NCBI RefSeq assembly: GCF_000212695.1
Contig: NC_015514.1
Coordinates: 1,116,001 to 1,180,000, forward strand
DNA from: Cellulomonas fimi ATCC 484
GTDB taxonomy: Bacteria > Actinomycetota > Actinomycetes > Actinomycetales > Cellulomonadaceae
DNA length: 64,000 bases
Direction of reading: 5' to 3'
Numbering within the stretch: the first letter of the stretch is position 1; each line of letters starts with the position of its first letter. The notes below the pieces were generated by a model that was not told the origin of the DNA, ran no database searches, and saw only the letters and a program-made list of their open reading frames with translations. Made by a program: the position numbers and the translations under genes. Shown piece by piece: positions 8,318 to 59,488 of the stretch.

Positions 8318-8323
8318 TAGGGT
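8318..8323 (+). promoter_or_regulatory. -10 hexamer TAGGGT, leaderless promoter for 8330
   Basis: The hexamer ends 6 bases before the ATG at 8330, so transcription should start at or beside the start codon. There is no Shine-Dalgarno sequence. Confidence 0.6.
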
Positions 8324-8329
8324 CGGGGC

Positions 8330-9124
8330 ATGGGACTTCCGGTCGTCTTCGTGCACGGGTTGCGCACGTCGCGGACCATGTGGCGCGCGCAGGTCGACGC
8401 GCTCGAGCGTGCGGGTCGCGTCGCCGTCGCGATGGACCTGCCCGGGCACGGTGAGCGCGCCGACGAACCGTTCACCCTCGACGGTGCGGTCGCGACGGTG
8501 GCCGACGCCGTGGACGGTGTCGGCGGGCGGGCGCTCGTGGTCGGCCTGTCGCTCGGCGGCTACACGGCCATCACGCACGCCGCCCGGCACCCCGAGCAGG
8601 TCGCGGGGCTGGTCGCGGCGTCGTGCTCGACGCGGCCGCTGCGTCTGCTGGTCGGCGGCTGGTCGCTCGCGGCGCGGGGGATCGTCCGGCTCCCGGACCA
8701 CGGTGCCGGGCTCAACGCGATGATGGTCCGGCGGTTCCTGCCGCCGCAGGGAGCGCAGGACGTCGGGGCGGGCGGGTTCGCGCTCCTCGTGACCGAGGAC
8801 GTGCTGCGGGAGGTCGCGCGGGCGACGCCCGTCGAGGACCTCGCCCGGCTGCGCGTGCCGGTGTGGGTCGTCAACGGCCGGTTCGACCACTTCCGCGGCG
8901 ACGAGCGGCTGTTCGTGCGCGCGTGCGCGGACGGCAGGCTCGTCGTCGTGCCCGGTGCGACGCACCTCGTCAGCCTCGTCGCGCCGGAACGGTTCACGCG
9001 CGTCGTGCTCGAGGCGCTGGACGAGCTCGACGCGATCGACGCGGGCCGACCCCCCACCCGGACCGCCGTCCCGGCGCTCCCGTCGACGGCGGCCGGAAGC
9101 CCCACGGACGAGCGCGCAGGCTGA
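8330..9124 (+). CDS. Alpha/beta-hydrolase family protein
   Basis: A 264-residue cytosolic hydrolase. FVHGLRTSR at 7-15 is the oxyanion-hole region, GLSLGG (Ser74) is the nucleophile elbow, and an Asp in VWVVNGRFDHF and His in VPGATHLVS complete a plausible triad. The substrate cannot be read from sequence. The gene stands alone between the alpha-operon terminator and minus-strand genes, with its own leaderless-type promoter. Confidence 0.85.
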   Translation: MGLPVVFVHGLRTSRTMWRAQVDALERAGRVAVAMDLPGHGERADEPFTLDGAVATVADAVDGVGGRALVVGLSLGGYTAITHAARHPEQVAGLVAASCSTRPLRLLVGGWSLAARGIVRLPDHGAGLNAMMVRRFLPPQGAQDVGAGGFALLVTEDVLREVARATPVEDLARLRVPVWVVNGRFDHFRGDERLFVRACADGRLVVVPGATHLVSLVAPERFTRVVLEALDELDAIDAGRPPTRTAVPALPSTAAGSPTDERAG

Positions 9125-9128
9125 CCGC

Positions 9129-9153: not shown

Positions 9154-9175
9154 GACGGGAGCGACCGGCGGGGGC

Positions 9176-9841
9176 TCAGCCGCCGACGAGCTCGGCGAGG
9201 AGCGCGGTGTCCAGGCGCACCGTGCCGTCGGCGGCGCGCACGGTGACCGGGCGCAGGGCCCCGTCCGGGGCGCGGTGGTGCAGGTGCGGCGTCACGGGCA
9301 GGAGCGTCGACGGCCGCGGGCTCGTCGCCCAGTCGAGCATGCCGCGGGCCGCGGACAGCACGGTGCCGCCCGAGACGACGTGCACCGCGACCGCGGACGC
9401 GTGCGGGACGGCGACGAGCATCCCCGCGCCCTCGTCGCTGCGCCGGCCCACCGCCGCGAACAGCTGGTCGACGACCAGCACGCGGCTCGGTGCGAGCTGG
9501 TCCTGCGTCGTGAGCACGTGCATGTCGCCGCCGCCGCGGAAGCCGACGACGTGCCACTCCGGGAGGGGGAGCCGGAGAGTCCCCGCGAGCGCCTCCGGCG
9601 CGTGCACCGCCCAGCCACCACGCTCGCCGAGGTCGTGCACGGGCCGCGGCTCGCCGTCGAAGAGCAGCATCGCGCAGGCCTGGAGGTGCGGGCCAAGCGC
9701 GGGGCCGGCGTCGGCCGGCAGGATGCCGGCGGGAACGATGCCCGCGGCGACGCGCGGCAGGTCCGGCGGGCGGGGTGCCGGCGCGGCGTCGGGCGCGGGG
9801 GAGGGCTGATCGGCACGCCGCCGACGGAAGAACGAGGGCAC
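9176..9841 (-). CDS. Hypothetical protein
   Basis: A predicted 221-residue soluble protein that I do not recognise. It starts with an Arg/Pro/Ala-rich segment (FFRRRRADQPSPAPDAAPAPRPPD), then a mixed alpha/beta body with several His. There is no signal peptide or membrane segment. The GTG start is supported by TACGGT ending 6 bases upstream (leaderless arrangement) and by codon use like its neighbours. It could be a secretion-accessory or enzyme-like protein, but nothing shows this. Confidence 0.7.
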   Translation of the reverse strand: MPSFFRRRRADQPSPAPDAAPAPRPPDLPRVAAGIVPAGILPADAGPALGPHLQACAMLLFDGEPRPVHDLGERGGWAVHAPEALAGTLRLPLPEWHVVGFRGGGDMHVLTTQDQLAPSRVLVVDQLFAAVGRRSDEGAGMLVAVPHASAVAVHVVSGGTVLSAARGMLDWATSPRPSTLLPVTPHLHHRAPDGALRPVTVRAADGTVRLDTALLAELVGG

Positions 9842-9847
9842 GTCGCC

Positions 9848-9853
9848 ACCGTA
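9848..9853 (-). promoter_or_regulatory. -10 hexamer TACGGT, leaderless promoter for the gene starting at 9841
   Basis: On the minus strand the hexamer ends 6 bases before the GTG. No ribosome binding site is present. Confidence 0.55.
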
Positions 9854-9898: not shown

Positions 9899-10666
9899 TC
9901 AGGTCTGCAGGCTCCAGGCCCGCACGCCGCCGACGATGCCCGCCTGGTTGGGCACGACGACGACGTCATCGCCGAGCCGCTCGAGCACCTGCGGCGTCAC
10001 CTGCCGTGCGTTGCCGCCCCCGAGGTACAGGCGGTCCCAGTGCACGACGGGGCGCAGGCCCTCGACGACGCGACGCACGCGCCGCGACCACAGCCCGTCG
10101 CCGAGCCGGGCCCGCTCGACCTGCCCGATGTACGCGTCGTAGGTCGTGCCCCAGCGCACCGGCGCGTGCGACAGCTCGAGGTGCGGCGCGAGCGTGCCGC
10201 CGTCGAACAGCGCGGACCCGAGTCCCGTGCCGAGGGTGAGCACGAGCTCGACGCCCGTGCCGGAGACCACGCCGGCGCCGTGGACCTCGGCGTCGTTGAG
10301 CACGAGCGTCGGCACGCCGAGCCGCTCCTGCAGGGCCGCGCGGATGTCGCACCCCGCCCACGCGGTCACGAGCGCCGGGTCGACCGCGGTCCGCGGCCCG
10401 GACCGGGTGACGTAGTGCGGTGTCGCGACGACGACCCCGTGCCGGATCATCCCGGGCATCCCGACCGTCGCCCGGTCCGCGTCGGGGAGGCCCGCGGCGA
10501 TCTGCGCGATCGTGTCGACGAGCCGCGACGGCGGCAACGGGTAGGGCGTCGGCACCCGGACCGCGGGTGCATGCAGCGTGCCGGCGGCGTCGAGCACCGA
10601 CGCCTTGATCCCGCCGCCCCCGCAGTCGACGGCGAGCGTGAAGGGATGGGACGAGAGGCTCGGCAC
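9899..10666 (-). CDS. ROK-family kinase, polyphosphate-glucokinase-like
   Basis: A 255-residue sugar kinase of the ASKHA/ROK fold that would phosphorylate glucose from polyphosphate or ATP. The N-terminal phosphate loop reads VDCGGGGIKASVLD, the catalytic Asp is in VLNDAEVHGAG, and the second phosphate loop is LTLGTGLGSALF, which resembles PpgK closely. RWGTTYDAYIG matches the PpgK region after it. The phosphate loop has GGGG where PpgK usually has GGSG. Glucose use and the polyphosphate donor are inferred from family. The gene is monocistronic with a TAGCGT leaderless promoter. Confidence 0.82.
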   Translation of the reverse strand: MPSLSSHPFTLAVDCGGGGIKASVLDAAGTLHAPAVRVPTPYPLPPSRLVDTIAQIAAGLPDADRATVGMPGMIRHGVVVATPHYVTRSGPRTAVDPALVTAWAGCDIRAALQERLGVPTLVLNDAEVHGAGVVSGTGVELVLTLGTGLGSALFDGGTLAPHLELSHAPVRWGTTYDAYIGQVERARLGDGLWSRRVRRVVEGLRPVVHWDRLYLGGGNARQVTPQVLERLGDDVVVVPNQAGIVGGVRAWSLQT

Positions 10667-10672
10667 CCGTCC

Positions 10673-10678
10673 ACGCTA
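10673..10678 (-). promoter_or_regulatory. -10 hexamer TAGCGT, leaderless promoter for the ROK kinase
   Basis: It ends 6 bases before the GTG start at 10666 on the minus strand. Confidence 0.6.
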
Positions 10679-10719: not shown

Positions 10720-10725
10720 TACCGT
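10720..10725 (+). promoter_or_regulatory. -10 hexamer TACCGT, near-leaderless promoter for truA
   Basis: It ends 8 bases before the GTG at 10734, so the mRNA would begin within a base or two of the start codon. Confidence 0.5.
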
Positions 10726-10733
10726 GGTGGCCC

Positions 10734-11684
10734 GTGACGCAGCAGGAGACCCCGGGCGGTGCCCCGACGCACGCGGACGCGGTGCGGCTGCGCCTCGACC
10801 TCGCCTACGACGGCACGTCGTTCAGCGGCTGGGCGCGGCAGCCTGCGCTGCGGACCGTGCAGGGCGTGCTCGAGGACGCGCTCGCCACCGTGCTGCGCAC
10901 CGCCGCGCACGGCGAGCCGGCGCCGCACGTCACGGTCGCCGGCCGCACCGACGCGGGGGTGCACGCGCGGGGGCAGGTCGCGCACATGGACGTCGCGCCG
11001 CACGTGCTCGACGCGGTCCGCGGCCGGTCCGACCGCACGCCCACCGACGCCCTTGTCGCGCGGCTCGCGGGTGTGCTCCCCGCGGACGTCGTCGTGCACC
11101 GCGTCGCCGTCGCCCCGCTCGGGTTCGACGCGCGGTTCTCCGCGCTGCGGCGCCGGTACGCGTACCGCATCTGCGACGACAGCGGCGCGCGGGACCCGCT
11201 GAGCCGCGCGCACGTGCTGTGGCACCGCCGCCCGCTCGACGTCGCGGCGATGGACGCCGCCGCGCGCACCCTCGTCGGCCGGCACGACTTCGCCGCGTAC
11301 TGCAAGCCGCGTGAGGGGGCGACGACCATCCGCACGCTCGAGGAGTTCGTGTGGGAGCGGGCGTCCGGCGGTGCGGAGGCGGGGCTCGTGGTCGCCCGCG
11401 TGCAGGCGGACGCGTTCTGCCACTCGATGGTCCGGGCGCTGGTCGGCGCGAGCGTGGCGGTGGGCGAGGGTCGGCGACCGGTCGCGTGGCCCGCGCAGCT
11501 GCTCGCCGGTGGGCGGCGGGACGCGGCGGCGCACGTCGTCGCGGCGCACGGCCTGACGCTGGAGGAGGTCGGCTACCCGCCCGACGCGGAGCTCGCGGAG
11601 CGGGCGGCCCGCACGCGCGCCCGCCGTGAGGCGCACGACGTCGACCCGCGCCCGGGGACGGACGGACCGGCGGGCTGCTGCTGA
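10734..11684 (+). CDS. truA: tRNA pseudouridine(38-40) synthase
   Basis: This enzyme converts U38-U40 in the tRNA anticodon stem to pseudouridine. The protein has 316 residues. [20 protein letters not shown] opens the domain, catalytic Asp73 lies in [15 protein letters not shown], and [11 protein letters not shown] is the conserved late motif. It is a little longer than E. coli TruA because of inserts around residues 55-65 and 95-105. It is transcribed from its own promoter here instead of following rplQ. Confidence 0.95.
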
Positions 11685-11712: not shown

Positions 11713-12168
11713 TCAGAGGCGGTCGTCGTCCTCGGTGTAGCGCCGGTCGTCGACGTACTCCTCCTCGATGAGGTGCACGGCGGCCTCCTCGGCGCTCGCG
11801 GCCCCGCCCGAGACACCGGCGTCGACGGCGAACGTGTCCGTCGGGCCCGCCTCGACGGCGCCGTCGTCGGCGACGAGGCGTCCCGCCCGGAGCTCCTCGC
11901 GGTGCCCCTCGACGCGCGGCCGGGCCTCCCAGACCTCGGGCTCTTCCTGCGCGATGCGCTGGTCGATGGTCTCCCGGTGCTGCTCCTCCCACGGCGTCTC
12001 GCCGTAGTGGGACGACCGCGGGCGCTCGCGCTCGGGCGGGGAGTAGCCCTCGTCCAGCAGGTCGTCGACGCCACGCTCGAGCAGCGTGTCGTCGCCGGTC
12101 AGCTGGTCGGTGTCGCCCTCGCTGCCGAGCTCGGGATCTGTCCTGGTGGCGGGGGTCTCGTCGCTCAT
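11713..12168 (-). CDS. DUF5709-type acidic protein
   Basis: A 151-residue, strongly acidic protein. It includes the LLERGVDDLLDEGYSPPERERP segment and the ETIDQRIAQEEPEVWE block shared by actinobacterial DUF5709 proteins. It is probably cytosolic and partly disordered. Function is unknown. The end EEYVDDRRYTEDDDRL is typical. GAGGGT ends 6 bases before the ATG, again a leaderless layout. Confidence 0.8.
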   Translation of the reverse strand: MSDETPATRTDPELGSEGDTDQLTGDDTLLERGVDDLLDEGYSPPERERPRSSHYGETPWEEQHRETIDQRIAQEEPEVWEARPRVEGHREELRAGRLVADDGAVEAGPTDTFAVDAGVSGGAASAEEAAVHLIEEEYVDDRRYTEDDDRL

Positions 12169-12174: not shown

Positions 12175-12180
12175 ACCCTC
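12175..12180 (-). promoter_or_regulatory. -10-like hexamer GAGGGT before the DUF5709 gene
   Basis: It ends 6 bases before the ATG at 12168. It keeps A2 and T6 but has G at position 1, so it is weaker evidence than the TANNNT cases. Confidence 0.4.
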
Positions 12181-12252: not shown

Positions 12253-12258
12253 GACACT
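12253..12258 (+). promoter_or_regulatory. -10-like hexamer GACACT before the ABC-F gene
   Basis: It ends 6 bases before the ATG at 12265. No Shine-Dalgarno sequence precedes that ATG. Confidence 0.45.
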
Positions 12259-12264: not shown

Positions 12265-13947
12265 ATGGGTCATCTCGACATCGGCGGCGTCGGCTACGTG
12301 CTGCCGGACGGCCGCCCCCTGCTCGACGACGTGACGTTCCGGGTGGGGGAGGGGGCCCGCGTCGCGCTCGTCGGGCCCAACGGCGTCGGCAAGTCGACGC
12401 TGCTGCGCGTCGTCGCGGGCGACGAGCAGCCGCACGCGGGGTCGGTCCAGCGCAGCGGCGGGCTCGGCGTCATGCGGCAGGACGTGGGGCGGATCGACGA
12501 CGACCGCTCCGTCCGGGACCTGCTGGCCTCGCTCGCACCCCCGGCCGTGCGCGACGCGGCGGCGGAGCTCGCGGCGGCCGAGCTGGGGATCATGGAGGTC
12601 GACGACGAGCCGGCGCAGATGCGGTACGCGCAGGCGCTCGTCGACTGGGCGGACGTCGGCGGGTACGAGGCGGAGGCCGGCTGGGACCGCGTGACGGACG
12701 CGGTGCTCTCGGTGCCGTTCGAGCGTGCGCAGCACCGGGAGGTGCGGACGCTGTCGGGCGGCGAGCAGAAGCGCCTCGTCCTCGAGGCGCTGCTGCGCGG
12801 GCCGGACGAGGTGCTGCTGCTCGACGAGCCCGACAACGCGCTCGACGTCCCGACGAAGCGCTGGCTCGAGGAGCGGCTCGTCGCGTCGCCGAAGTCGGTG
12901 CTGCTCGTGAGCCACGACCGCGAGCTGCTCGCGAGGGTGGCGACGCACGTCGCGACCCTGGAGCCGACCGCGGTGGGGGCGTCGGCGTGGGTGCACGGCG
13001 GCGGGTTCGCGACGTACCACCAGGCGCGCGAGGACCGGCGCTCGCGGCTCGAGGAGCTGCTGCGGCGGTGGGAGGAGGAGCACGCCAAGCTGCGCGAGCT
13101 CGTCCTGACGCTCAAGACGAAGGCCGCCTTCAACGACGGCCTGGCGTCGCGGTACCAGGCCGCGCAGACCCGGCTGCGCAAGTTCGAGGAGGCCGGGCCG
13201 CCGATGGTCCGGGTCCGGGAGCAGTCGGTGCGGGTGCGGCTGCGGGGCGGGCGGACCGCGAAGCGCGCCGTGGTCGCCCAGGGGCTCGAGCTCACGGGGC
13301 TCATGCGGCCGTTCGACCTGGAGGTGTGGTTCGGAGAGCGGGTCGCCGTGCTCGGCTCGAACGGGTCGGGCAAGTCGCACTTCCTGCGGCTGCTGGCTGC
13401 GGGCGGCTCCGACCCCGGGCCCGAGCACGTGCCTGCGGGGGAGACCGCGGTGGCGCCCGTGCGGCACACGGGGTCGGTCGTCCTCGGCTCGCGCGTGCGC
13501 CCGGGGTGGTTCGCGCAGAACCACGCGCACCCCGAGCTGGTCGGCCGGACCCTGCTGGAGATCCTGCACCGCGGCGACGCGCACCGGGCGGGGATGGGCC
13601 GCGAGCAGGCGAGCCGCGCGCTGGACCGGTACGAGCTGGTCGAGCGGGCGGAGCAGCCGTACGAGACGCTCTCGGGCGGTCAGCAGGCGCGGCTGCAGAT
13701 CCTGCTGCTCGAGCTGGGCGGCGCGACGCTGCTGCTGCTGGACGAGCCGACGGACAACCTCGACCTGCACTCCGCCGAGGCGCTCGAGGCGGGGCTGGCC
13801 GCGTTCGAGGGCACCGTCGTGGCGGTCACGCACGACCGGTGGTTCACGCGCACGTTCGACCGCTTCCTGGTGTTCGCGGCCGACGGGTCGGTCGTCGAGA
13901 CGCCCGAGCCGGTGTGGGACGCGGCGCGGGTCGAGCGCGCGCGTTGA
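12265..13947 (+). CDS. ABC-F family ATPase
   Basis: A 560-residue protein with two ABC ATPase domains and no membrane segment, so it belongs to the ABC-F ribosome-associated class and not to transporters. Walker A motifs are GPNGVGKST and GSNGSGKSH, signatures are LSGGEQ and LSGGQQ, and Walker B motifs are LLLDEPDNALD and LLLDEPTDNLD. The charged helical linker between the domains (about 245-315) is the part that enters the ribosomal E site in ABC-F proteins. The role could be translation rescue or antibiotic protection; sequence alone cannot separate these. It is monocistronic. Confidence 0.9.
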   Translation: MGHLDIGGVGYVLPDGRPLLDDVTFRVGEGARVALVGPNGVGKSTLLRVVAGDEQPHAGSVQRSGGLGVMRQDVGRIDDDRSVRDLLASLAPPAVRDAAAELAAAELGIMEVDDEPAQMRYAQALVDWADVGGYEAEAGWDRVTDAVLSVPFERAQHREVRTLSGGEQKRLVLEALLRGPDEVLLLDEPDNALDVPTKRWLEERLVASPKSVLLVSHDRELLARVATHVATLEPTAVGASAWVHGGGFATYHQAREDRRSRLEELLRRWEEEHAKLRELVLTLKTKAAFNDGLASRYQAAQTRLRKFEEAGPPMVRVREQSVRVRLRGGRTAKRAVVAQGLELTGLMRPFDLEVWFGERVAVLGSNGSGKSHFLRLLAAGGSDPGPEHVPAGETAVAPVRHTGSVVLGSRVRPGWFAQNHAHPELVGRTLLEILHRGDAHRAGMGREQASRALDRYELVERAEQPYETLSGGQQARLQILLLELGGATLLLLDEPTDNLDLHSAEALEAGLAAFEGTVVAVTHDRWFTRTFDRFLVFAADGSVVETPEPVWDAARVERAR

Positions 13948-14066: not shown

Positions 14067-14072
14067 GAGAAT
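14067..14072 (+). promoter_or_regulatory. -10-like hexamer GAGAAT before the gene at 14079
   Basis: It ends 6 bases before the ATG. The surrounding GGCGGG is not a convincing ribosome site at that spacing. Confidence 0.45.
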
Positions 14073-14078: not shown

Positions 14079-14498
14079 ATGTCGAACACCACCGCCCCGT
14101 GGGTCCACCGATCCGCGCGTGTCGACGACGCCGCGGCCCTGAGCACGCTCGCCGAGTGGCTCTCCCACGTGCAGCTCGCGAGCACCACCGACCAGGAGGA
14201 GCTCGAGCGGTGCTCGGCCGCGCTCGAGCGCATCGCGCTCGCGTCGGGCGTGCTCATGCGCCAGCTCGGCGACCTGTCGCTGGACCGGTGCGACTTCACG
14301 GACCACCTGCTGGCCGACGAGCGGCACCGCGTCGCCGAGGCGCAGCGTGCGGCGTTCCAGGACGCGCTGGGCTCGCTCGTGGAGCGGGCGCGGCAGCGGC
14401 GCGGGCGGCACGCCAACGTGGTGCCCGTGCAGGACCTGCTGCCGCTGCTGCCGGCGCGGCTGCGCGAGCCGGCCCCGGCGTCGCCCGCGGCCGTCTGA
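14079..14498 (+). CDS. Hypothetical helical protein
   Basis: A 139-residue soluble protein, predicted to be mostly helical, that I do not recognise. It contains two Cys (in ERCSAALERI and LDRCDFTDH), Arg-rich RARQRRGRHA and a Pro/Ala-rich end. Codon pattern and the upstream GAGAAT hexamer support a real gene. There are no catalytic motifs and no operon partner. Confidence 0.65.
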   Translation: MSNTTAPWVHRSARVDDAAALSTLAEWLSHVQLASTTDQEELERCSAALERIALASGVLMRQLGDLSLDRCDFTDHLLADERHRVAEAQRAAFQDALGSLVERARQRRGRHANVVPVQDLLPLLPARLREPAPASPAAV

Positions 14499-14583: not shown

Positions 14584-15186
14584 TCAGCCGACGACGAGCG
14601 ACACGGCGAGCCCTGCCATGACGAGCGCGACGCCGACGTCGAGCACCTGCCACGCGCGCGGCCGGGCGAACAGCGGGCGCAGCCGCGCGGCGCCGAACCC
14701 GAGCGTCGTGAACCAGGTGATCGACGCGACCACGGCGCCCGCACCGAACGCCCACCCGCCCGCGGCCGGGTGCTGCTGCGCGAGGCCGCCCAGCAGGACC
14801 ACGGTGTCGAGGTAGACGTGCGGGTTGAGGAACGTCAGGGCGAGGCACGTGAGGACGACGGCGGAGCGCCGGGCCGGGCCGTCGGCCGCGGGGTCGAGGT
14901 GCTCGGGACGCAGCGCGCGCCGGGCGGCACCGACCGCCAGCACGGCGAGGAACGCCGCGCCGGCCCAGCGGACGACCTGCAGGACGACGGGCCGGTCGGC
15001 GACGAGCGAGCCGAGCCCGGCGACGCCGACCGAGACGAGCAGCGCGTCCGCCCCGGCGCACACGAGGACGACCGGCAGCACGTGCTCGCGCCGCAGCCCC
15101 TGGCGCAGGACGAAGGCGTTCTGCGCGCCGATGGCGACGATGAGCGAGAGGCCGGTGAGGAAGCCTGCGAGGGTGGCGGGAAGCAC
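14584..15186 (-). CDS. LysE/ArgO-family basic amino acid exporter
   Basis: A 200-residue inner-membrane protein with about six hydrophobic helices. IVAIGAQNAFVLRQGL near the start and LTFLNPHVYLDTVVLLG match LysE/ArgO family hallmarks (the GAQNAF and NPH.YLDT blocks). Members export L-lysine and/or L-arginine when these build up. It is divergent from a LysG/ArgP-type regulator with 69 bases between starts, which is the classical regulated pair. Whether Lys or Arg is the main substrate is not readable. Confidence 0.9.
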   Translation of the reverse strand: MLPATLAGFLTGLSLIVAIGAQNAFVLRQGLRREHVLPVVLVCAGADALLVSVGVAGLGSLVADRPVVLQVVRWAGAAFLAVLAVGAARRALRPEHLDPAADGPARRSAVVLTCLALTFLNPHVYLDTVVLLGGLAQQHPAAGGWAFGAGAVVASITWFTTLGFGAARLRPLFARPRAWQVLDVGVALVMAGLAVSLVVG

Positions 15187-15192: not shown

Positions 15193-15198
15193 ACGCTA
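15193..15198 (-). promoter_or_regulatory. -10 hexamer TAGCGT, leaderless promoter for the exporter
   Basis: It ends 6 bases before the GTG start at 15186 on the minus strand. Confidence 0.55.
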
Positions 15199-15212: not shown

Positions 15213-15256
15213 TGAAGACCAGTTCATGTTTCTGGTGAAGCATTAGCATCGCTTCA
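15213..15256. promoter_or_regulatory. Candidate LysG/ArgP operator region
   Basis: Four alternating half sites occur: TGAA at 15213 and 15236, TTCA at 15223 and 15253. The last pair forms a TGAAGC-N9-GCTTCA palindrome (15236-15256) whose right arm overlaps the regulator's start codon. LysR-type regulators bind such dyads. The placement fits control of the exporter and autoregulation. Confidence 0.5.
15244..15249 (+). promoter_or_regulatory. -10 hexamer TAGCAT, leaderless promoter for the LysR-type regulator
   Basis: It lies inside the palindrome 15236-15256 and ends 6 bases before the ATG at 15256, so regulator binding would block its own transcription. Confidence 0.55.
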
Positions 15257-22633: not shown

Positions 22634-22639
22634 ATTGTG
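22634..22639 (-). promoter_or_regulatory. -10-like hexamer CACAAT, leaderless promoter for coaA
   Basis: On the minus strand it ends 7 bases before the GTG start at 22626. Confidence 0.5.
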
Positions 22640-24488: not shown

Positions 24489-24494
24489 TAGACT
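24489..24494 (+). promoter_or_regulatory. -10 hexamer TAGACT, leaderless promoter for glmS
   Basis: It ends 7 bases before the ATG at 24502. No ribosome binding site and no room for a glmS ribozyme lie between. Confidence 0.6.
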
Positions 24495-26383: not shown

Positions 26384-26737
26384 GTGATCGTCGGCGTCGG
26401 GATCGACGTCGTCGACATCGCGCGGTTCGTCGCGACGCTGCACCGCGCCCCCGCGCTGCGCGACAAGCTGTTCACGCCCGCCGAGCGCGTCATGCCCGAG
26501 ACCTCCTTGGCCGCGCGCTTCGCGGCGAAGGAGGCGCTCGCCAAGGCCCTCGGCGCGCCGCCCGGCATGCACTGGCACGACGCCGCCGTCCCGCGCACGG
26601 CCGGCGCCCAGCCGGTGCTCGAGGTGCGCGGCACGGTCGCGGCCCGCGCCGCCGAGCTGGGTGTCACCCGGTTCCACCTGTCGATCTCGCACGACGCGGG
26701 CATCGCGTCGGCGGTGGTGGTCGCCGAGCGCGACTGA
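26384..26737 (+). CDS. acpS: Holo-[acyl-carrier-protein] synthase
   Basis: This enzyme transfers 4'-phosphopantetheine from CoA to ACP. The 117-residue protein has the two signatures of the AcpS type: [10 protein letters not shown] (metal-binding Asp) and the [13 protein letters not shown] motif with catalytic Glu, plus FHLSISHD near the end. It starts 26 bases after glmS with GTG, probably co-transcribed. It sits close to nnr, as in other actinobacteria. Confidence 0.95.
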
Positions 26738-27822: not shown

Positions 27823-27828
27823 ACGTTA
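27823..27828 (-). promoter_or_regulatory. -10 hexamer TAACGT, leaderless promoter for the LLM oxidoreductase
   Basis: It ends 7 bases before the ATG at 27815 on the minus strand. The gene on the other side (27846) uses a normal GCGAGG ribosome site instead. Confidence 0.55.
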
Positions 27829-27845
27829 CCTGCGGAGCCGCGAGG

Positions 27846-29369
27846 ATGAGACCCGTGCTGCTGACGTGGAACGCGGCCCGGGTGCGGGCGGCCGAGGAAC
27901 CCCTGCTCGCGGCCGGTGCGCCGCTCATGGCGCACGCCGCCTTCGCGCTGCACGTCGCGGTCGCGCGCGAGCTGCGGGCCCGTCGCGGCCGGGTCGCGGG
28001 AGCGGTCGTCGTGGTGCTCGCGGGCGCGGGCAACAACGGCGGGGACGCGCTGCACGCCGGTGCGCTGCTCGCGCGCCGCGGTGCCCGGGTGCTCGCCCTG
28101 ACGACGGCGCAGCGGTGGCACGACGAGGGCGCCGCCGCGCTGCTCGCCGCGGGCGGACGGCTGCGTGCCCTCGTCCCGGACGCGGTGGACGACGACGCCG
28201 CGCAGGTCCTGGCGGCGGACGTCGTGCTCGACGGGGTGCTCGGGATCGGGGCGCGCGGCGGGCTGCGCGGGCCGGTCGCCCGGCTCGTCGAGGCGGTCGC
28301 GGCCGCGCGGCCCGACGGTGACTCGCCGCTCGTGGTCGCCGTCGACGTGCCGTCCGGCATCGGCGTGGACGACGGGACGCGCGCGGGGACAGTCCTCGAC
28401 GCCGACCTGACCGTCACGTTCGGGGGCGCCAAGCCCGGGCTCGTGCTGCCGCCCGCCGCGTGGGCCGCCGGCCGGGTGGAGGTCGTCGACCTCGGCCTCG
28501 CCCTGGCGGGGCCCGCGGACGTCGCCTCGCTCGGTCCGGACGACGTCGCCGCCCTGTGGCCCGTACCCGAGCGGGCGGCGCACAAGTACGCGCGCGGGGT
28601 GGTCGGCGTCGTCGCGGGGACGCGGACGTACCCGGGCGCCGCGGTGCTCGCGTCGAGCGGTGCGGCGCTCGCGGGCGTCGGGATGGTGCGGTACGTCGGC
28701 GACGCGGGGGACGCGGTGCTCGCCGCGCGCCCCGAGGTGGTCGTGGGGCCCGGGCGGGTGCAGGCGTGGGTGCTCGGGCCGGGCGTGTCGCCGGACGACG
28801 CCGCGCAGCGCCGGCGCGTGCAGAGGGCGTTCGACGGGGTCCTGCACCGCGGGGAGGCGGCGGTCGTCGACGCGGGCGCGCTCGACCTGCTGCCCGAGCG
28901 CGTCGGCCCGCACGTGGTGCTGACCCCCCACGCGGGGGAGCTCGCGCGCCTGCTCGCCCAGCACGGGGTCGACGTCGAGCGCACGGCGGTGGAGGCGGAG
29001 CCGCTGCGGTGGGCGCGCGAGGCGCACGACCGGACCGGGGCGACCGTGCTGCTCAAGGGCGGCACGACCGTCGTCGTGGGCGCGCACGGCGCGGTCTACG
29101 CGCAGTCCGACGGCCCGACGTGGCTCGCGACCGCGGGAGCCGGGGACGTGCTCGCCGGGGTCCTGGGCGCGCTGCTCGCGGCCCGCGTGGACGACGTGCA
29201 CGAGGACCCGTCGCTCGCCGCGGCGCTCGCCGCCGCGGCCGCGCTCGTGCACGGCCGGGCGGCGCACCGGGCCGTGCCGGACGGGCCGATCGTCGCGCTC
29301 GCGGTCGCGCACGCCGTCCCGGCGACCGTCGCCGAGCTGCTCCGCGCGACGGGCACACTGGCCCGGTGA
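27846..29369 (+). CDS. nnr: Bifunctional NAD(P)H-hydrate epimerase / ADP-dependent NAD(P)H-hydrate dehydratase
   Basis: This protein repairs hydrated NADH and NADPH. It has 507 residues. The YjeF N-terminal epimerase domain (1 to about 215) has AGAGNNGGDALH at 60-70 and VDVPSGIGVDDG. The ribokinase-like dehydratase domain (about 230-507) has HKYARGVVGVVAG, LTPHAGELARLL and TAGAGDVLAGVLGALLA. It is first in a tightly packed run with a kinase, alr and the tsa genes. Confidence 0.93.
   Translation: MRPVLLTWNAARVRAAEEPLLAAGAPLMAHAAFALHVAVARELRARRGRVAGAVVVVLAGAGNNGGDALHAGALLARRGARVLALTTAQRWHDEGAAALLAAGGRLRALVPDAVDDDAAQVLAADVVLDGVLGIGARGGLRGPVARLVEAVAAARPDGDSPLVVAVDVPSGIGVDDGTRAGTVLDADLTVTFGGAKPGLVLPPAAWAAGRVEVVDLGLALAGPADVASLGPDDVAALWPVPERAAHKYARGVVGVVAGTRTYPGAAVLASSGAALAGVGMVRYVGDAGDAVLAARPEVVVGPGRVQAWVLGPGVSPDDAAQRRRVQRAFDGVLHRGEAAVVDAGALDLLPERVGPHVVLTPHAGELARLLAQHGVDVERTAVEAEPLRWAREAHDRTGATVLLKGGTTVVVGAHGAVYAQSDGPTWLATAGAGDVLAGVLGALLAARVDDVHEDPSLAAALAAAAALVHGRAAHRAVPDGPIVALAVAHAVPATVAELLRATGTLAR
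29354..29359 (+). promoter_or_regulatory. -10-like hexamer CACACT inside the end of nnr
   Basis: It ends 6 bases before the GTG at 29366. It could give an internal leaderless transcript, but the gene also overlaps nnr (GTGA), so coupling alone may suffice. Confidence 0.3.
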
Positions 29370-30092: not shown

Positions 30093-30098
30093 GAGACT
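30093..30098 (+). promoter_or_regulatory. -10-like hexamer GAGACT before alr
   Basis: It ends 7 bases before the GTG at 30106, supporting that start and a separate alr transcript. Confidence 0.4.
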
Positions 30099-31302: not shown

Positions 31303-31877
31303 CCGGCCGGCACGGTGCGCCCGCGGGCGCGCAGACACGCGACGAGACCGTCGCGTCGACGAGCGTGACGCTGCCCGACGCCGACGCGACGCGTGCGTTC
31401 GGCCGCGCGCTCGCGCGGGTGCTGCGCGCGGGCGACCTGGTCGTGCTCACGGGTGACCTGGGTGCGGGCAAGACGACGCTCACGCAGGGCATCGGTGCGG
31501 GCCTCGGCGTGCGCGGGCAGGTCGCGTCGCCGACGTTCATCATCGCCCGCGAGCACCCCCCGGTGCCGGGACCCGACGGCGTGCGCGGTCCGGGGCTCGT
31601 GCACGTCGACGCGTACCGCCTGTCGTCGCTCGACGAGGTCGACGCGCTCGACCTCGACGCGAGCCTGGACGAGTCGGTGACGGTCGTCGAGTGGGGCGAG
31701 GGGTGGGTCGAGGGCCTCGCCGCGGACCGCCTCGAGGTCAGCCTGACGCGGCCGCGCGGGGGCGTCGCGCCGGGCGACGACGTCGACGCCGCCGCGGGGG
31801 AGCGCGCCGTCACGGTGCGCGCCGTCGGCAGCCGCTGGGTGGGCGTGGAGCTGCCCGGCGCGGACCTGGCAGGCTGA
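31299..31877 (+). CDS. tsaE: tRNA t6A-synthesis ATPase TsaE
   Basis: This ATPase works with TsaB and TsaD to make N6-threonylcarbamoyladenosine at A37 of ANN-decoding tRNAs. The 192-residue protein has Walker A GDLGAGKTT (52-60), GQVASPTFIIAREH and the HVDAYRL and VTVVEWGEGW blocks of the family. It carries a 20-residue polar N-terminal extension and an Ala/Asp-rich insert near residue 155. The ATG overlaps the alr stop. Confidence 0.94.
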   Translation: MTGRHGAPAGAQTRDETVASTSVTLPDADATRAFGRALARVLRAGDLVVLTGDLGAGKTTLTQGIGAGLGVRGQVASPTFIIAREHPPVPGPDGVRGPGLVHVDAYRLSSLDEVDALDLDASLDESVTVVEWGEGWVEGLAADRLEVSLTRPRGGVAPGDDVDAAAGERAVTVRAVGSRWVGVELPGADLAG

Positions 31878-34754: not shown

Positions 34755-34760
34755 TATCCT
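34755..34760 (+). promoter_or_regulatory. -10 hexamer TATCCT, leaderless promoter for tsaD
   Basis: It ends 7 bases before the ATG at 34768, giving tsaD its own transcript apart from tsaE-tsaB-rimI. Confidence 0.6.
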
Positions 34761-36690: not shown

Positions 36691-36696
36691 AGGCTA
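36691..36696 (-). promoter_or_regulatory. -10 hexamer TAGCCT, leaderless promoter for padR
   Basis: It ends 6 bases before the GTG at 36684 on the minus strand. Confidence 0.6.
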
Positions 36697-45298: not shown

Positions 45299-45304
45299 AT
45301 CCTC
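45299..45304 (-). promoter_or_regulatory. -10-like hexamer GAGGAT before the methyltransferase
   Basis: It ends 7 bases before the ATG at 45291 on the minus strand. GAGGAT may double as a poor ribosome site, so the call is tentative. Confidence 0.35.
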
Positions 45305-46041: not shown

Positions 46042-46338
46042 TCAGACGACGGCGCGGCGACCGTTGCGCTGCGCGAGGATCGCGGCCCGCTCGTCCTCGG
46101 ACAGGCCGCCCCACACGCCGTACGGCTCGCGCACCGCGAGCGACTGCTCGCGGCACTCCTTGAGCACCGGGCACGTCGCGCAGATGGCCTTCGCGGCCTC
46201 GGCGCGCCGGCGTCGTGCCGACCCCCGCTCACCCTCCGGGTGGAAGAACAGGTCCTGGTCGGCGTCGCGGCAGGCTCCCTCGAACTGCCACTCCCACAGG
46301 TCCATCACCGGTCCGGGCAACCGCGAGATCTCCGCCAT
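46042..46338 (-). CDS. WhiB-family iron-sulfur regulator, WhiB3/WhiD type
   Basis: A 98-residue [4Fe-4S] protein with ligands Cys23, Cys53, Cys56 and Cys62 and the G(V/I)WGG turn. LPGP, the W.WQ block, FFHPEGERGSAR and CPVLKECREQSLAVREPYGVWGGLSEDER match WhiB3 of mycobacteria and WhiD of streptomycetes better than other Wbl types. These bind the housekeeping sigma factor and respond to redox or nitric oxide. The position beside groES, bldM and guaB agrees with that identity. AGGAGG precedes the ATG. Confidence 0.93.
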   Translation of the reverse strand: MAEISRLPGPVMDLWEWQFEGACRDADQDLFFHPEGERGSARRRRAEAAKAICATCPVLKECREQSLAVREPYGVWGGLSEDERAAILAQRNGRRAVV

Positions 46339-46588: not shown

Positions 46589-46594
46589 CACAAT
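46589..46594 (+). promoter_or_regulatory. -10-like hexamer CACAAT, leaderless promoter for the MerR-type gene
   Basis: It ends 6 bases before the ATG at 46601. No ribosome site is present. Confidence 0.5.
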
Positions 46595-48540: not shown

Positions 48541-50211
<1,671 letters not shown>

Positions 50212-51366: not shown

Positions 51367-51372
51367 ATCGTG
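51367..51372 (-). promoter_or_regulatory. -10-like hexamer CACGAT before the 73-residue gene
   Basis: It ends 6 bases before the ATG at 51360 on the minus strand. Confidence 0.4.
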
Positions 51373-51401: not shown

Positions 51402-51407
51402 TAGCCT
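51402..51407 (+). promoter_or_regulatory. -10 hexamer TAGCCT, leaderless promoter for guaB3
   Basis: It ends 6 bases before the GTG at 51414. Confidence 0.6.
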
Positions 51408-51413: not shown

Positions 51414-52538
51414 GTGAGCAACGAGATCGAGATCGGGCGCGGGAAGCGCGGACGGCGGGCCTTCTCCTTCGACGACGTGGCGGTCGTCCCGTCGCGGCGG
51501 ACGCGGGACCCGGAGGAGGTCTCGGTCGGCTGGCAGATCGACGCGTACCACTTCGACCTGCCGGTGCTCGCGGCGCCCATGGACTCGGTCATGAGCCCCG
51601 CGACGGCGGTCGCCCTCGGTCAGGCCGGCGGGCTGGGCGTGCTCGACCTCGAGGGCCTGTGGACGCGCTACGAGGACCCGACCCCGCTGCTCGCGGGGAT
51701 CGCGGCGCTCGACCCGGCGCGCGCCACGGCGCGCATGCAAGAGGTCTACGCGGCGCCCATCCAGCCCGACCTGGTGAGCGCGCGCCTCAAGGAGATCCGC
51801 GCGGCCGGGGTCACGGTCGCGGGCGCGCTGTCGCCGCAGCGCACGCAGGAGCTGTGGCGCACGGTCGTCGACGCGGGCGTCGACCTGTTCGTCATCCGGG
51901 GCACGACGGTCTCGGCCGAGCACGTCTCGGGTCGCGCCGAGCCGCTCAACCTCAAGCGCTTCATCTACGAGCTCGACGTCCCCGTGATCGTCGGCGGCGC
52001 GTCGACGTACACGGCGGCGCTGCACCTCATGCGCACGGGCGCCGCGGGCGTCCTGGTCGGGTTCGGCGGAGGCGCGGCGCACACGACGCGCGTGTCGCTG
52101 GGCATCCACGCGCCCATGGCGACGGCCGTGGCGGACGTCGCGGCGGCGCGGCGGGACTACCTCGACGAGTCCGGCGGCCGGTACGTGCACGTCATCGCGG
52201 ACGGCGGGGTCGGCCGCTCGGGCGACCTGGTCAAGGCGGTCGCGTGCGGCGCCGACGCGGTGATGCTGGGTGCGGCGCTCGCGCGGGCGACGGAGGCTCC
52301 GGGCCGCGGCTGGCACTGGGGTCCCGAGGCGCACCACCCGCACCTGCCGCGCGGGGAGCGGGTCGAGGTGGGCACGGCCGGCTCGCTGCAGGAGATCCTG
52401 TTCGGCCCCGGCCACACGGCGGACGGCACGCTCAACCTCATCGGCGCGCTGCGCCGGGCGATGGCGACGACCGGCTACTCGGACCTCAAGGAGTTCCAGC
52501 GGGTCGAGGTCGTGGTCTCGCCGTACCAGCCGCACTGA
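51414..52538 (+). CDS. guaB3: GuaB3-type IMP dehydrogenase-related protein
   Basis: A 374-residue TIM barrel without CBS domains. It has FSFDDVAVVPSRRTRDPEEVSVGWQIDAY, VLAAPMDSVMSP and HVIADGGVGRSGDLVKAVACGADAVMLG. These match the GuaB3 subgroup found after guaB in actinobacteria. The loop matching the catalytic-Cys loop of GuaB reads GFGGGAAHTTR (216-226), with His223 where guaB in this window has Cys316. Activity as an IMP dehydrogenase is therefore doubtful. GTG start supported by TAGCCT upstream. Confidence 0.93.
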   Translation: MSNEIEIGRGKRGRRAFSFDDVAVVPSRRTRDPEEVSVGWQIDAYHFDLPVLAAPMDSVMSPATAVALGQAGGLGVLDLEGLWTRYEDPTPLLAGIAALDPARATARMQEVYAAPIQPDLVSARLKEIRAAGVTVAGALSPQRTQELWRTVVDAGVDLFVIRGTTVSAEHVSGRAEPLNLKRFIYELDVPVIVGGASTYTAALHLMRTGAAGVLVGFGGGAAHTTRVSLGIHAPMATAVADVAAARRDYLDESGGRYVHVIADGGVGRSGDLVKAVACGADAVMLGAALARATEAPGRGWHWGPEAHHPHLPRGERVEVGTAGSLQEILFGPGHTADGTLNLIGALRRAMATTGYSDLKEFQRVEVVVSPYQPH

Positions 52539-56616: not shown

Positions 56617-56919
56617 ATGGCTCAGCGCACCGCCGTCGTCGCCTCCCGCGTGGGGCTGCACGCCCGCCCGGCGATGATCTTCACCAACGCGGTCGCCGCC
56701 ACCGGCGTCCCGGTGACCCTCGCCCGGCCGGGCGGCGAGCCCGTCGACGCGAGCAGCATCCTGTTCGTCATGTCGCTCGGCGTCCCGCACGGCGAGGAGG
56801 TCACGCTCACCACCGAGGACGGTGCCGAGCGCGTGCTCGACGAGCTCGTCACGCTGCTCGAGACCGACCTCGACGCGCAGGACGCCCCCACGGGCGCGTC
56901 GGGAGGGTCGGCGTCGTGA
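56617..56919 (+). CDS. ptsH: Phosphocarrier protein HPr
   Basis: A 100-residue general PTS protein. His15 in VGLHARPA receives phosphate from enzyme I. The region around residue 46 (DASSILFVMSLG) has two Ser, but HPr kinase is not generally known in actinobacteria. A short Ala/Gly/Ser tail extends the usual 88 residues. AACGGAGAG precedes the ATG. Confidence 0.95.
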   Translation: MAQRTAVVASRVGLHARPAMIFTNAVAATGVPVTLARPGGEPVDASSILFVMSLGVPHGEEVTLTTEDGAERVLDELVTLLETDLDAQDAPTGASGGSAS

Positions 56920-58616
56920 CCGGCGACCGCGTGCTGCGCGGCGTCGGCGTCGGCCGTCGCGGGGTCGTCGGGCCCGTCGCGCAGGTGCAGCCCGCGCCGT
57001 TCGTGCAGGACGACGCCCCGCTGCTCGTCGACGGGGTCCCGGCCGACCCGGCCACCGCACGGCAGGTCGTCGACGACGCGTTCACGCACGTCGTCGACGA
57101 CCTGCGGGCCCAGTCCGCGCGCGCCACCGGCACGGTGCGCGACGTCCTCGCCGCGACCGCGCAGATGGCCGACGACAAGGCGCTGCGCAGCCAGGTGCTC
57201 ACGCGCGTCGCCGCGGGCGACCACGTGGTGCACGCCGTCGACGGGGTCGTGGCGATGTTCGCCACCATGTTCGAGCAGGCCGGCGGCTACCTCGCCGAGC
57301 GGGTCACCGACCTGCACTCGGTCCGCGACCGGGTCGTCGCCCGAGCCCTGGGGCTGCCGGCCCCGGGCGTGCCGGCCCTCGACCGGCCGTCCGTGGTGGT
57401 CGCGCGGGACCTCGCGCCGGCCGACACCGCGGCCCTCGACCTCGACAACGTCCTCGCGATCGTGACCGAGCTCGGCGGACCCACCGGCCACACCGCGATC
57501 ATCGCGGGCCAGCTCGGCCTGCCGTGCCTCGTGCAGGTCCCGTTCGCGACGACCCTCCAGGACGGCACCGAGGTCGCGGTCGACGCGGCCGCCGGCACCG
57601 TCACGGTGGACCCGGACGACGCGCTGCGGGCCGAGCTGGCCCGGCGCGCGCAGGCCGAGGACGCGCTCGCCGCCGACGAGGCCCCGGGCGCCACCGCCGA
57701 CGGGCACGCCGTCCAGCTGCTCGCGAACATCGGGACGCCGCAGGACGCCGAGCGCGTGGCCGGCACCGCCGTCGAGGGCGTGGGCCTGTTCCGCACCGAG
57801 GTGCTGTTCCTCGAGCGCACGACCGCCCCGACGCGCGACGAGCAGGCGCGCGCGTACGCGCAGGCGCTGGCCGCGATGGGGGAGCGCAAGGTCGTCGTGC
57901 GGACGCTCGACGCCGGCGCGGACAAGCCGCTCGCGTTCGCCACCCAGCCCGACGAGGAGAACCCGGCGCTCGGCGTGCGGGGCTACCGGCTGGTGCGGCG
58001 CGACCCGGAGCTGCTCGACGTGCAGCTCGCGGCGCTCGGTGCGGCGCAGTCGGAGGCGGGCACGCCTCCCTGGGTCATGGCACCGATGGTGTCCACGGCG
58101 GCCGAGGCCCGCGACTTCGCCGCCCGCGCCCGCGCGCACGGCATCGCCACGGTCGGCGTCATGGTCGAGGTCCCCGCCGCTGCGCTGCGGGCGCGGGAGA
58201 TCCTCGCGGAGGTCGACTTCGTGTCGCTCGGCACCAACGACCTCGCGCAGTACACGATGGCCACCGACCGGCTGCGCGGCGAGCTCGCCGACCTGCTCGA
58301 CCCGTGGCAGCCCGCGGTCCTCGACCTCGTCGACGCGACCGCCCGGGCCGGCCAGGAGCTGCACAAGCCCGTCGGCGTGTGCGGGGAGTCCGCGTCGGAC
58401 CCGCTCCTCGCGCTGGTCCTGGTGGGGCTCGGCGTGACGAGCCTGTCGATGTCCGCGGGCGCCGTGCCCGCCGTGCGGTACGCGCTGCGCCACCACACGC
58501 GCGCGCAGTGCGCGACGATCGCCGCCGCCGCGCTCGCGGCACCCTCGGCGGAGGCGGCCCGCGCCGCCGTCGTCGCCCTGCTCGTGCCCGAGGTCCGCGC
58601 CACCCTCGGGGTCTGA
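56916..58616 (+). CDS. ptsI: Phosphoenolpyruvate-protein phosphotransferase (PTS enzyme I)
   Basis: A 566-residue protein that passes phosphate from PEP to HPr. The phosphorylated His192 lies in ELGGPTGHTAIIAGQLGLPCLV. The C-terminal PEP-binding barrel has GVGLFRTEVLFLER, SLGTNDLAQYTMATDR and GVCGESASDPLLA. The GTG overlaps the ptsH stop (GTGA). Having ptsH and ptsI here makes the fru operon self-sufficient. Confidence 0.96.
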   Translation: MTGDRVLRGVGVGRRGVVGPVAQVQPAPFVQDDAPLLVDGVPADPATARQVVDDAFTHVVDDLRAQSARATGTVRDVLAATAQMADDKALRSQVLTRVAAGDHVVHAVDGVVAMFATMFEQAGGYLAERVTDLHSVRDRVVARALGLPAPGVPALDRPSVVVARDLAPADTAALDLDNVLAIVTELGGPTGHTAIIAGQLGLPCLVQVPFATTLQDGTEVAVDAAAGTVTVDPDDALRAELARRAQAEDALAADEAPGATADGHAVQLLANIGTPQDAERVAGTAVEGVGLFRTEVLFLERTTAPTRDEQARAYAQALAAMGERKVVVRTLDAGADKPLAFATQPDEENPALGVRGYRLVRRDPELLDVQLAALGAAQSEAGTPPWVMAPMVSTAAEARDFAARARAHGIATVGVMVEVPAAALRAREILAEVDFVSLGTNDLAQYTMATDRLRGELADLLDPWQPAVLDLVDATARAGQELHKPVGVCGESASDPLLALVLVGLGVTSLSMSAGAVPAVRYALRHHTRAQCATIAAAALAAPSAEAARAAVVALLVPEVRATLGV

Positions 58617-58618
58617 GC

Positions 58619-59488
58619 GTGGGCGCCGGGACCTGGCCCGCGCCCGGGCCGCGCGCGTGGCGGGCGGACGCCGCGCCCGTGCCGTGCGAGGCGACCGACG
58701 TGGGCGGGCTGCTGCGCCGCGTCGTGGGGGACGACCTCGTCGGGGTGTGGCTGCACGGGTCGGCGGTCGCGGGCGGCCTGCGCCCCGACAGCGACGTCGA
58801 CGTGCTCGCGGTCGTCGCGCGGCCGCTCGACGACGCGCGCCGCGCCGCCCTCGTCGCGGGCCTGCTGGAGGTGTCCGGCCGGTACCCGCGCCGCGACGCG
58901 GCGGCCCGGCCGGTCGAGCTCGCGGTCGTCGTGCGCGACGACGTCCTGCCCTGGCGGTACCCGCCCGTGTGCGACCTGCTGTACGGCGAGTGGCTGCGGG
59001 AGGGGTGCGAGGCGGGGGACCTGCCGCGGCGGGGCGTCGACGCGGACCTCGCGGTGCTGCTCACGGTCGTGCGCGCGCACGGCGTCCCCGTCGTGGGGCC
59101 CGGTGCCGTGACGGTCCTCGACCGTGTCCCGGGCGCGGACCTGCGCCGTGCGGTGCTCGACGGCGTCGGCGCCCTGCTCGACGACCTGCGGGGCGACGAG
59201 CGCAACGTGCTGCTCACCCTCGCGCGCGTCGTCGTCACGGTGCGCACCGGCTGGATCGTGCCGAAGGACGAGGCCGCGGCCACAGTCGCCGACGACCTGC
59301 CCGCCGACTCCGCCGCCGTCCTGCGCCGCGCCCGGGCCGCCTACCTCGGCATCGCGGCCGACGAGCCGGTCGGGCCGGACGCGCTCGTGGCCGCGACCGC
59401 CGAGCGGCTCGTCGCGCTCGCCCACGACGCGGACCGCGCCGCACCGCCGCCCTCACGGCCCGTCCCGGTGGTGCCGCGCGTACCCTGA
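58619..59488 (+). CDS. AadA-like aminoglycoside nucleotidyltransferase family protein
   Basis: A 289-residue protein. The nucleotidyltransferase core LHGSAVAGGLRPDSDVDVLAVV holds the Gly-Ser and the metal-binding Asp59/Asp61. Glu100 in RPVELAVVVRDDVLPWRYPP matches the catalytic-base region of AadA. The C-terminal helical domain (ERNVLLTLARVVVTVRTGWIVPKDEAA, ARAAYLGIA) is of the ANT(3'')/(9) type. It is chromosomal, 2 bases after ptsI, without integron or transposon signs. A resistance role is possible but unproved; a house function is equally possible. Confidence 0.87.
   Translation: MGAGTWPAPGPRAWRADAAPVPCEATDVGGLLRRVVGDDLVGVWLHGSAVAGGLRPDSDVDVLAVVARPLDDARRAALVAGLLEVSGRYPRRDAAARPVELAVVVRDDVLPWRYPPVCDLLYGEWLREGCEAGDLPRRGVDADLAVLLTVVRAHGVPVVGPGAVTVLDRVPGADLRRAVLDGVGALLDDLRGDERNVLLTLARVVVTVRTGWIVPKDEAAATVADDLPADSAAVLRRARAAYLGIAADEPVGPDALVAATAERLVALAHDADRAAPPPSRPVPVVPRVP
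59481..59486 (+). promoter_or_regulatory. -10 hexamer TACCCT inside the end of the AadA-like gene
   Basis: It ends 7 bases before the ATG at 59494 and could start a separate leaderless mRNA for the dehydrogenase. Confidence 0.45.

Follow-up and report, generated by a model that had tools for sequence, protein, structure and literature searches.

The window analysed here is a stretch of 64,000 bases (positions 1116001-1180000) in the single-contig genome of Cellulomonas fimi ATCC 484, which comprises 4,266,344 bases and has a G+C content of 0.749 in its first 464 kb. Between positions 8318 and 59486 of the window, 23 gene starts are preceded by a hexamer of the form NANNNT that ends 6, 7 or 8 bases before the start codon. 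Thirteen of the hexamers read TANNNT, the number given in an original prediction that had claimed 22 such starts without listing them, and ten have another first base. Judged from the letters, these hexamers are very probably -10 elements of the primary sigma factor, placed so that transcription would begin at the A or G with which the start codon opens and yield leaderless mRNAs with no need of a Shine-Dalgarno sequence. In the descriptions that follow, spacing means the number of bases between the end of the hexamer and the start codon, and the fractions give the relatives that keep the motif.

The TANNNT hexamers on the forward strand begin with TAGGGT (8318..8323), 6 bases before the ATG at 8330 of an alpha/beta hydrolase-like gene (NANNNT 12/12, TANNNT 9/12), and TACCGT (10720..10725), 8 bases before the GTG of truA at 10734 (TANNNT 14/25, NANNNT 20/25). 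TAGCAT (15244..15249) lies 6 bases before the ATG at 15256 of an ArgP/LysG regulator that is divergent from a LysE-type exporter (TANNNT 14/19), and TAGACT (24489..24494) lies 7 bases before the ATG of glmS at 24502 (TANNNT 28/30; leaderless probability 0.76 in one mixture fit and 0.37 for the gene in a later one). The same hexamer, TATCCT, precedes tsaD (34755..34760, 7 bases before the ATG at 34768; TANNNT 15/20) and guaB (48685..48690, 6 bases before the ATG at 48697; TANNNT 20/20). Further along are TAGCCT (51402..51407), 6 bases before the GTG at 51414 of a GuaB3-type IMP dehydrogenase-related gene (TANNNT 18/18), and TACCCT (59481..59486), 7 bases before the ATG at 59494 of a succinic semialdehyde dehydrogenase gene that begins 5 bases past the upstream gene (TANNNT 13/15). 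The reverse strand carries TACGGT (9848..9853), 6 bases before a GTG at 9841 that is an upstream alternative start of gene 9176-9670 and was chosen by the mixture fit; TAGCGT before both a ROK / polyphosphate glucokinase-like gene (10673..10678, 6 bases before the GTG at 10666; TANNNT 16/18) and the LysE-type exporter (15193..15198, 6 bases before the GTG at 15186; TANNNT 18/20); TAACGT (27823..27828), 7 bases before the ATG at 27815 of an F420-dependent LLM oxidoreductase gene (TANNNT 19/19); and TAGCCT (36691..36696), 6 bases before the GTG at 36684 of a PadR regulator (TANNNT 6/6).

The ten remaining hexamers all have a G at -14, in half of them as part of a TG. Those with the TG are GAGGGT, preceded by TGC (12175..12180, reverse strand, 6 bases before the ATG at 12168; NANNNT 18/19, TANNNT 1); GAGACT, preceded by TGC (30093..30098, forward, 7 bases before the GTG of alr at 30106; NANNNT 19/20, TANNNT 0); CAGGCT, preceded by TGG (31870..31875, forward, 6 bases before the GTG of tsaB at 31882, within a gene run; TANNNT 14/20, NANNNT 19/20); GAGGAT, preceded by TGC and Shine-Dalgarno-like (45299..45304, reverse, 7 bases before the ATG at 45291 of a gene with a weak methyltransferase match; NANNNT 18/19, TANNNT 0); and CACAAT, preceded by TGG (46589..46594, forward, 6 bases before the ATG at 46601 of a MerR-type regulator; NANNNT 13/14, TANNNT 1). 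At alr, a few of the 19 relatives with NANNNT have the hexamer at distant start codons. Those with the G but no TG are GACACT (12253..12258, forward, 6 bases before the ATG at 12265 of an ABC-F ATPase; NANNNT 13/13, TANNNT 0), GAGAAT (14067..14072, forward, 6 bases before the ATG at 14079; mixture fit), CACAAT (22634..22639, reverse, 7 bases before the GTG at 22626 of a type I pantothenate kinase gene; NANNNT 32/33, TANNNT 2), the Shine-Dalgarno-like GAGGAT (27842..27847, forward, 7 bases before the GTG at 27855 of an NAD(P)H-hydrate repair gene; NANNNT 19/21) and CACGAT (51367..51372, reverse, 6 bases before the ATG at 51360 of a 73-aa gene; mixture fit). Six more NANNNT matches at spacings 6-8 in the same stretch were left out of the 23: 16510 (rplM), where the hexamer is a Shine-Dalgarno sequence; 19072, 20172 and 33011, which have weak coding support; 29366, whose hexamer is kept in 2/12 relatives; and 56916, with fewer than 3 orthologs.

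To ask how often such hexamers arise by chance, gene starts were called from coding potential alone, blind to the motif, which gave 375 genes (374 used for the spacing peak) and, with a second sample added, 674 genes in 864 kb (64 in the window, 610 elsewhere). TANNNT ended 6, 7 or 8 bases before the start in 24, 12 and 9 of the 374 genes, compared with 0.94 per position at distances 25-60. Against 200 dinucleotide shuffles of the upstream regions, the counts at these spacings were 72/674 for TANNNT (shuffle mean 2.1, maximum 7) and 154/674 for NANNNT (mean 31.3, maximum 50); the window itself gave 10/64 (mean 0.2, maximum 2) and 21/64 (mean 3.3, maximum 8), and the genes outside it 62/610 (1.8) and 133/610 (29.0). 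The motif is real and genome-wide, and the excess that the original prediction had proposed to count across all starts exists in the sample taken. TANNNT stood at this spacing before none of 9042 internal in-frame ATG/GTG codons, although this control is not wholly fair, given the constraints of the reading frame. Coincidence in a genome of 75% GC, combined with a choice of starts guided by the motif, had to be considered because the earlier starts were picked by eye; it is contradicted by the motif-blind starts, the shuffles, the decoy distances and the conservation among orthologs described below, and is scarcely credible.

We then fitted a mixture model that chooses start and signal (leaderless, Shine-Dalgarno or neither) jointly. 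It assigned 26% of the 674 genes to the leaderless class, 65% to Shine-Dalgarno and 9% to neither, with A at position 2 of the fitted hexamer in 95% and T at position 6 in 96%, and its log-likelihood was 494.7 compared with 317.2 for decoy spacings of 15-24. A separate fit, in which an 'other' leaderless class was added to those with T at the first position of the hexamer and with TG upstream of it, was discarded after the added class had moved to the Shine-Dalgarno-like GAGNNN; its T and TG components summed to 103 and 80 of 674 genes by posterior, compared with 27 and 30 for shuffled upstream regions under fixed parameters. Since the shuffle-corrected count of NANNNT, (154-31.3)/674, is 18%, a fair range for the leaderless share of genes, as estimated from the motif, would be 18-26%. 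Summed probabilities were 23.2/64 in the window and 153.5/610 elsewhere, and single 20-kb samples spanned 0.08-0.71 in a looser fit. The density in the window, which had been called notable, is thus ordinary, and a share of about 20% of genes had already been reported for actinobacteria (Zheng 2011; PMC3160421).

The motif is also conserved. The ortholog survey covers genes with at least 3 orthologs; it draws on 17 named loci and 20 further genomes that may share species, and which accepts any start codon from -90 to +60 bases, so that a few matches stand at unlikely starts; the p values given here ignore shared descent. Twenty of the 23 starts had at least 3 orthologs (9841, 14079 and 51360 fell outside the comparison), and NANNNT is present in the majority of relatives at all 20, the lowest being truA (20/25). 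Pooled, NANNNT was found in 358/381 ortholog cells (decoy 57.1) and TANNNT in 208 (decoy 9.9). For genes with a leaderless probability above 0.8 (16 genes, 292 cells) the counts were 274 (decoy 42.6) and 179 (6.9), compared with 47 (decoy 45.6) and 16 (5.0) for genes with a Shine-Dalgarno probability above 0.8 (19 genes, 330 cells). For guaB, TANNNT lies 6 bases (29 loci) or 7 bases (1 locus) before the start in 30/30 loci, namely our own and the best-scoring 29 of 61 genomes, while the lengths of the protein starts differ and both the hexamer interior and the spacer vary. The promoter follows the moving start codon across the family. The motif also allows start codons to be moved or fixed, for example those of glmS (24502) and tsaD (34768).

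How could these hexamers serve their genes? With this spacing, the distance at which transcription usually starts falls on the start codon, so that the 5' ends of the RNAs would lie there, and ribosomes would initiate at the terminal ATG or GTG, as has been measured for mycobacteria. A pyrimidine occupies -1 in 33/36 genes with spacing 7, compared with 235/355 Shine-Dalgarno genes (p=0.001); at spacing 8, both -1 and -2 are pyrimidines in 8/13 genes; and at spacing 6 the -1 base is no different from that of Shine-Dalgarno genes (p=0.60). Where pyrimidines precede the start codon at these longer spacings, the earliest suitable base for initiation is its own A or G. The motif was described in the original prediction as marking 'leaderless or near-leaderless' genes, and the hexamers could be -10 elements of mRNAs that keep leaders of 1-2 bases at spacings 7 and 8. 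A purine does precede the start in a minority of cases (3/36 spacing-7 genes at -1, and 5/13 spacing-8 genes at -1 or -2), but the pyrimidine counts go against such short leaders, as does the same pyrimidine rule reported for measured M. tuberculosis starts (PMC4227772), which leaves them very improbable; the 'near-leaderless' genes are better read as leaderless. Start codons do not discriminate, because ATG or GTG is near-universal in both classes (133/133 leaderless and 354/355 Shine-Dalgarno genes).

Leaderless transcription, which the original prediction had proposed, is the best reading of the motif excess seen throughout the sample, and two further features of the upstream sequence are consistent with it. 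Shine-Dalgarno matches of at least 4 bases are at shuffle level in the 72 TANNNT genes (28%, compared with 26% after shuffling); for genes without NANNNT the values are 58% and 38%. A TTG lies 22-25 bases upstream in 2/89 leaderless T-type hexamers, as opposed to 21/99 TANNNT hexamers upstream of Shine-Dalgarno genes, so that the former show no visible -35 element. The original prediction needs correcting in that GAGG and AAGG hexamers can be Shine-Dalgarno sequences. At rplM (16510, AAGGCT) this is so: a long leader containing AAGG is retained in those relatives whose sequences were displayed. For 27855 and 45291, the leaderless probabilities were low in the first fit, at 0.30 and 0.38 (0.76 and 0.95 in the later fit). 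We nevertheless consider it unlikely that hexamers such as GAGGAT, GAGGGT and AAGGCT, which lack the first T, are the Shine-Dalgarno sequences of leadered genes: relatives of 27855 (CATGAT, CAGGAT, CATCAT, CAAGAT) and 45291 vary the GG, giving forms such as CATGAT, CATCAT, AAAGAT and CACCAT, and hold A2 and T6, and CACAAT, GACACT and CAGAAT are not Shine-Dalgarno-like.

Several observations weigh against leaderless transcription from these hexamers. Some of them could be secondary promoters of longer transcripts, and the gene starts derive from our own gene caller. The fit with decoy spacings still returns a nominal 28%, with a GC-rich motif; the fitted fraction alone therefore proves nothing and was not used as proof. 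Outside the family, the truA locus is mixed, with 20 TANNNT, 15 other NANNNT and 45 without either among 80 relatives, and the GAGGAT forms in Streptomyces may be Shine-Dalgarno sequences. Finally, 2/19 genes called Shine-Dalgarno show TANNNT above decoy in relatives. These are 26384-26737 and 46042-46338, each Shine-Dalgarno-led here and with TANNNT at leaderless spacing in 7/24 and 7/19 relatives, respectively; they may have changed their mode of initiation or may use another start.

A comparison of the bases upstream of the hexamers with and without the first T suggests two promoter versions: one with T at -12 (position 1 of the hexamer), and one without that T, with a G at -14, often as TG, and more A/T within the hexamer. 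In the window, G at -14 accompanies 10/10 non-T hexamers (TG in 5) and 4/13 T hexamers (TG in none; p=0.0016). In the whole sample from this genome, TG precedes 2/88 hexamers with T1 and 14/44 without it (p=3e-6), and the interior holds 0.25 and 0.91 A/T bases, respectively. Because the idea of two versions arose from family loci, our own genome and other groups are the fairer tests. With motif-blind starts, TGN[ACG]ANNNT was found in 25/674 genes of our own genome (decoy mean 1.75), and TG together with T1 in 1/72. For the groups of relatives we used 2119 genes; the family group comprises 34/40 loci, six lower-GC loci being omitted, and two stretches per genome overlap in part, so that some genes are counted twice, while the truA-locus set (78/80 loci used) is all from one neighbourhood. 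Here TGN[ACG]ANNNT occurred 89 times (decoy 5.3), and TG in 1/199 hexamers with T1 compared with 89/331 without (p=3e-19). By group, the counts were 57 in the family (decoy 1.9), 9 in Cellulomonas/Actinotalea (0.8), 9 in Streptomycetaceae (1.0), 8 in other Micrococcales (0.6) and 6 in the Nocardioidaceae/Kineococcus group (0.2). The other high-GC actinobacterial groups thus follow the same trend, Streptosporangiales excepted (0, decoy 0.8).

From genus to genus, most genes keep their version. Relatives' hexamers at pantothenate kinase (CA[CG]AAT), the MerR-type regulator (CACAAT), ABC-F ([CG]ACACT), alr (GAGA[AC]T) and 45291 (AAGGAT or AAAGAT) retain A2 and T6 and hardly ever have T1. Among ortholog cells of the 20 genes, those without T1 have G at -14 in 135/150 and TG in 70, and those with T1 have G at -14 in 82/208 and TG in 2. 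Genes with T1 keep it in 190/207 kept cells, and where T-type genes have lost it G-14 is present in 13/17; genes without T1 stay so in 133/151 cells, with tsaB accounting for 14 of the 18 exceptions. The relatives of tsaB fall into 14 with T at -12 and no TG, and 5 without the T, all of which have TG.

How might one polymerase read both versions? In E. coli sigma-70, the T:A pair at -12 is read via Q437/T440 and TG at -15/-14 via H455/E458, and -14G can compensate for an absent -12T (PMC2613000). The primary sigma factor of this genome carries WWIRQAITR and RIPVHMVE, and chains of known structure under the names SigA and HrdB match it at 1e-152; 237 of its residues pair with E. coli RpoD 375-611, and a hand count that takes the equal lengths as gapless places Q, T, H and E at 437, 440, 455 and 458. 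With these residues matching, one sigma factor could read both promoter versions. We are evenly divided over the broader proposal that, where no -35 element is present, the primary sigma factor requires a single anchor in double-stranded DNA at the leaderless promoters of Cellulomonadaceae, either T at -12 or else G at -14, often as TG, and that most genes are stable in their version, tsaB swaps wholesale and T plus TG is avoided. Hexamers without T1 but with G-14 are well above decoy (55 compared with 10.9 in our own genome, 189 compared with 41.6 in relatives), while against such a rule hexamers with neither anchor also exceed it (27 compared with 17.5, and 142 compared with 76.3). This 'neither' class remains and is larger outside our own genome; part of it may be Shine-Dalgarno sequences. 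A strict rule of exactly one anchor was dropped, because G-14 also occurs with T-12 at background level (26/72 in our own genome) and 'neither' exceeds decoy in relatives; only the combination of TG with T at -12 is rare. In intergenic and coding DNA of our own sample and of relatives, most groups have fewer TG at -15/-14 before TANNNT than at the majority of nearby offsets, and this holds outside gene starts too: intergenic TANNNT in our own genome has it in 10/357 cases, where offsets -10 to -4 give 13 to 28 each. Avoidance of stray strong promoters may therefore explain that part.

Leaderless genes as such are already established in Actinobacteria, and what is described here is a clean genome-wide case. 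Zheng 2011 reports about 20% leaderless genes in 86/89 actinobacterial genomes, with TANNNT some 12 bases ahead of the start codon and fewer such genes in the translation class (PMC3160421); Cellulomonas is absent from its main text, and here the promoter is seen to track moving starts in relatives. In M. tuberculosis, where leaderless mRNAs have been measured, Cortes 2013 likewise describes TANNNT without a -35 consensus and a purine start commonly flanked by a pyrimidine, but reports TG (TGNTANNNT) in 7% of TANNNT promoters (PMC3898074), compared with 1/72 here and 1/199 in relatives at leaderless spacing. A study of promoter architectures in the same species resembles our data in a class E (TGNNANNNT) without TANNNT and in the -1 pyrimidine at longer spacing (PMC4227772); here, the non-TANNNT class stands at leaderless spacing in Cellulomonadaceae and was traced gene by gene. 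The offset of a missing -12T by -14G has its likeness in the mix-and-match promoters of E. coli (Pminor), which also need a -35 element, whereas the leaderless promoters here show none (PMC2613000); with the extended -10 (TGn) they share the TG next to the -10 but not the full hexamer with T at -12. Shell 2015 found a 5'-terminal ATG or GTG necessary and sufficient in mycobacteria, and 71/97 leaderless genes leaderless in a second species (PMC4633059); leaderless translation was measured there and is inferred here. A title and abstract search, which did not extend to subscription papers, found no transcription start-site map for Cellulomonas. Compensation by -14G has been described in E. coli, and the motif itself in Mycobacterium; the freshest points are the scale and the conservation seen here. 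The present data offer a sequence rule for leaderless genes that also covers the non-T class, and if the rule of two versions is true, searches with TANNNT alone miss a large part of these genes.

Within the genome, the clearest split is by operon position: in the first fit the leaderless fraction was 0.40 for divergent, 0.27 for leading and 0.10 for operon-internal genes, and the latter have TANNNT in 4/180 (shuffles 0.4) and NANNNT in 19/180 (8.5). The earlier statement that the motif occurs almost only at lone or operon-leading genes is too strong, since tsaB (31882), alr (30106) and 59494 lie within gene runs. The leaderless promoters of tsaB and 59494 abut or overlap the upstream gene and are kept as NANNNT in 19/20 and 13/15 relatives. 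A split by gene class had also been called notable. A Pfam scan of 80 leaderless and 80 Shine-Dalgarno genes, taken from 93 and 160 leading genes no longer than 520 aa (out of totals of 109 and 200), found that the classes did not differ greatly among the 25 families listed on either side (of 129 and 114); fewer leaderless genes in the translation class had been reported before (PMC3160421). Solute-binding and LacI proteins each appear 3 times among the listed Shine-Dalgarno families, and neither is on the leaderless list.

Leaderless genes also occur back to back. In 98 divergent pairs, both genes were leaderless in 22 (T or TG posterior above 0.7), compared with 14.7 expected if independent, and the start codons of such pairs are separated by a median of 78 bases (minimum 36), compared with 239.5 when neither gene is leaderless (p=2e-6). 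Four lie in the window: 27815/27855 (39 bases), 51360/51414 (53), 10666/10734 (67) and 15186/15256 (69). The hexamers of 27815/27855 are 13 bases apart, so that two polymerases could hardly bind simultaneously, and in these close pairs (39-69 bases) the promoters are probably mutually exclusive.

Other genes of the window have leaders. The original prediction had assigned -35/-10 pairs with leaders to the ribosomal, groES, whiB and fru operons; such pairs are present at rplM, groES and gene 46042-46338, and also at 40219 (reverse strand) and 40449, but the 300 bases next to 52896, ahead of the gene for 1-phosphofructokinase, contain none. The name whiB is unconfirmed, and 46042-46338 matched no family at 1e-20. 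At rplM (16510), a TTGACC-18-TAGTCT promoter lies 169 bases upstream, and the leader ends in a conserved ACGAAGGCT, ahead of the GTG start, in the relatives whose sequences were displayed.

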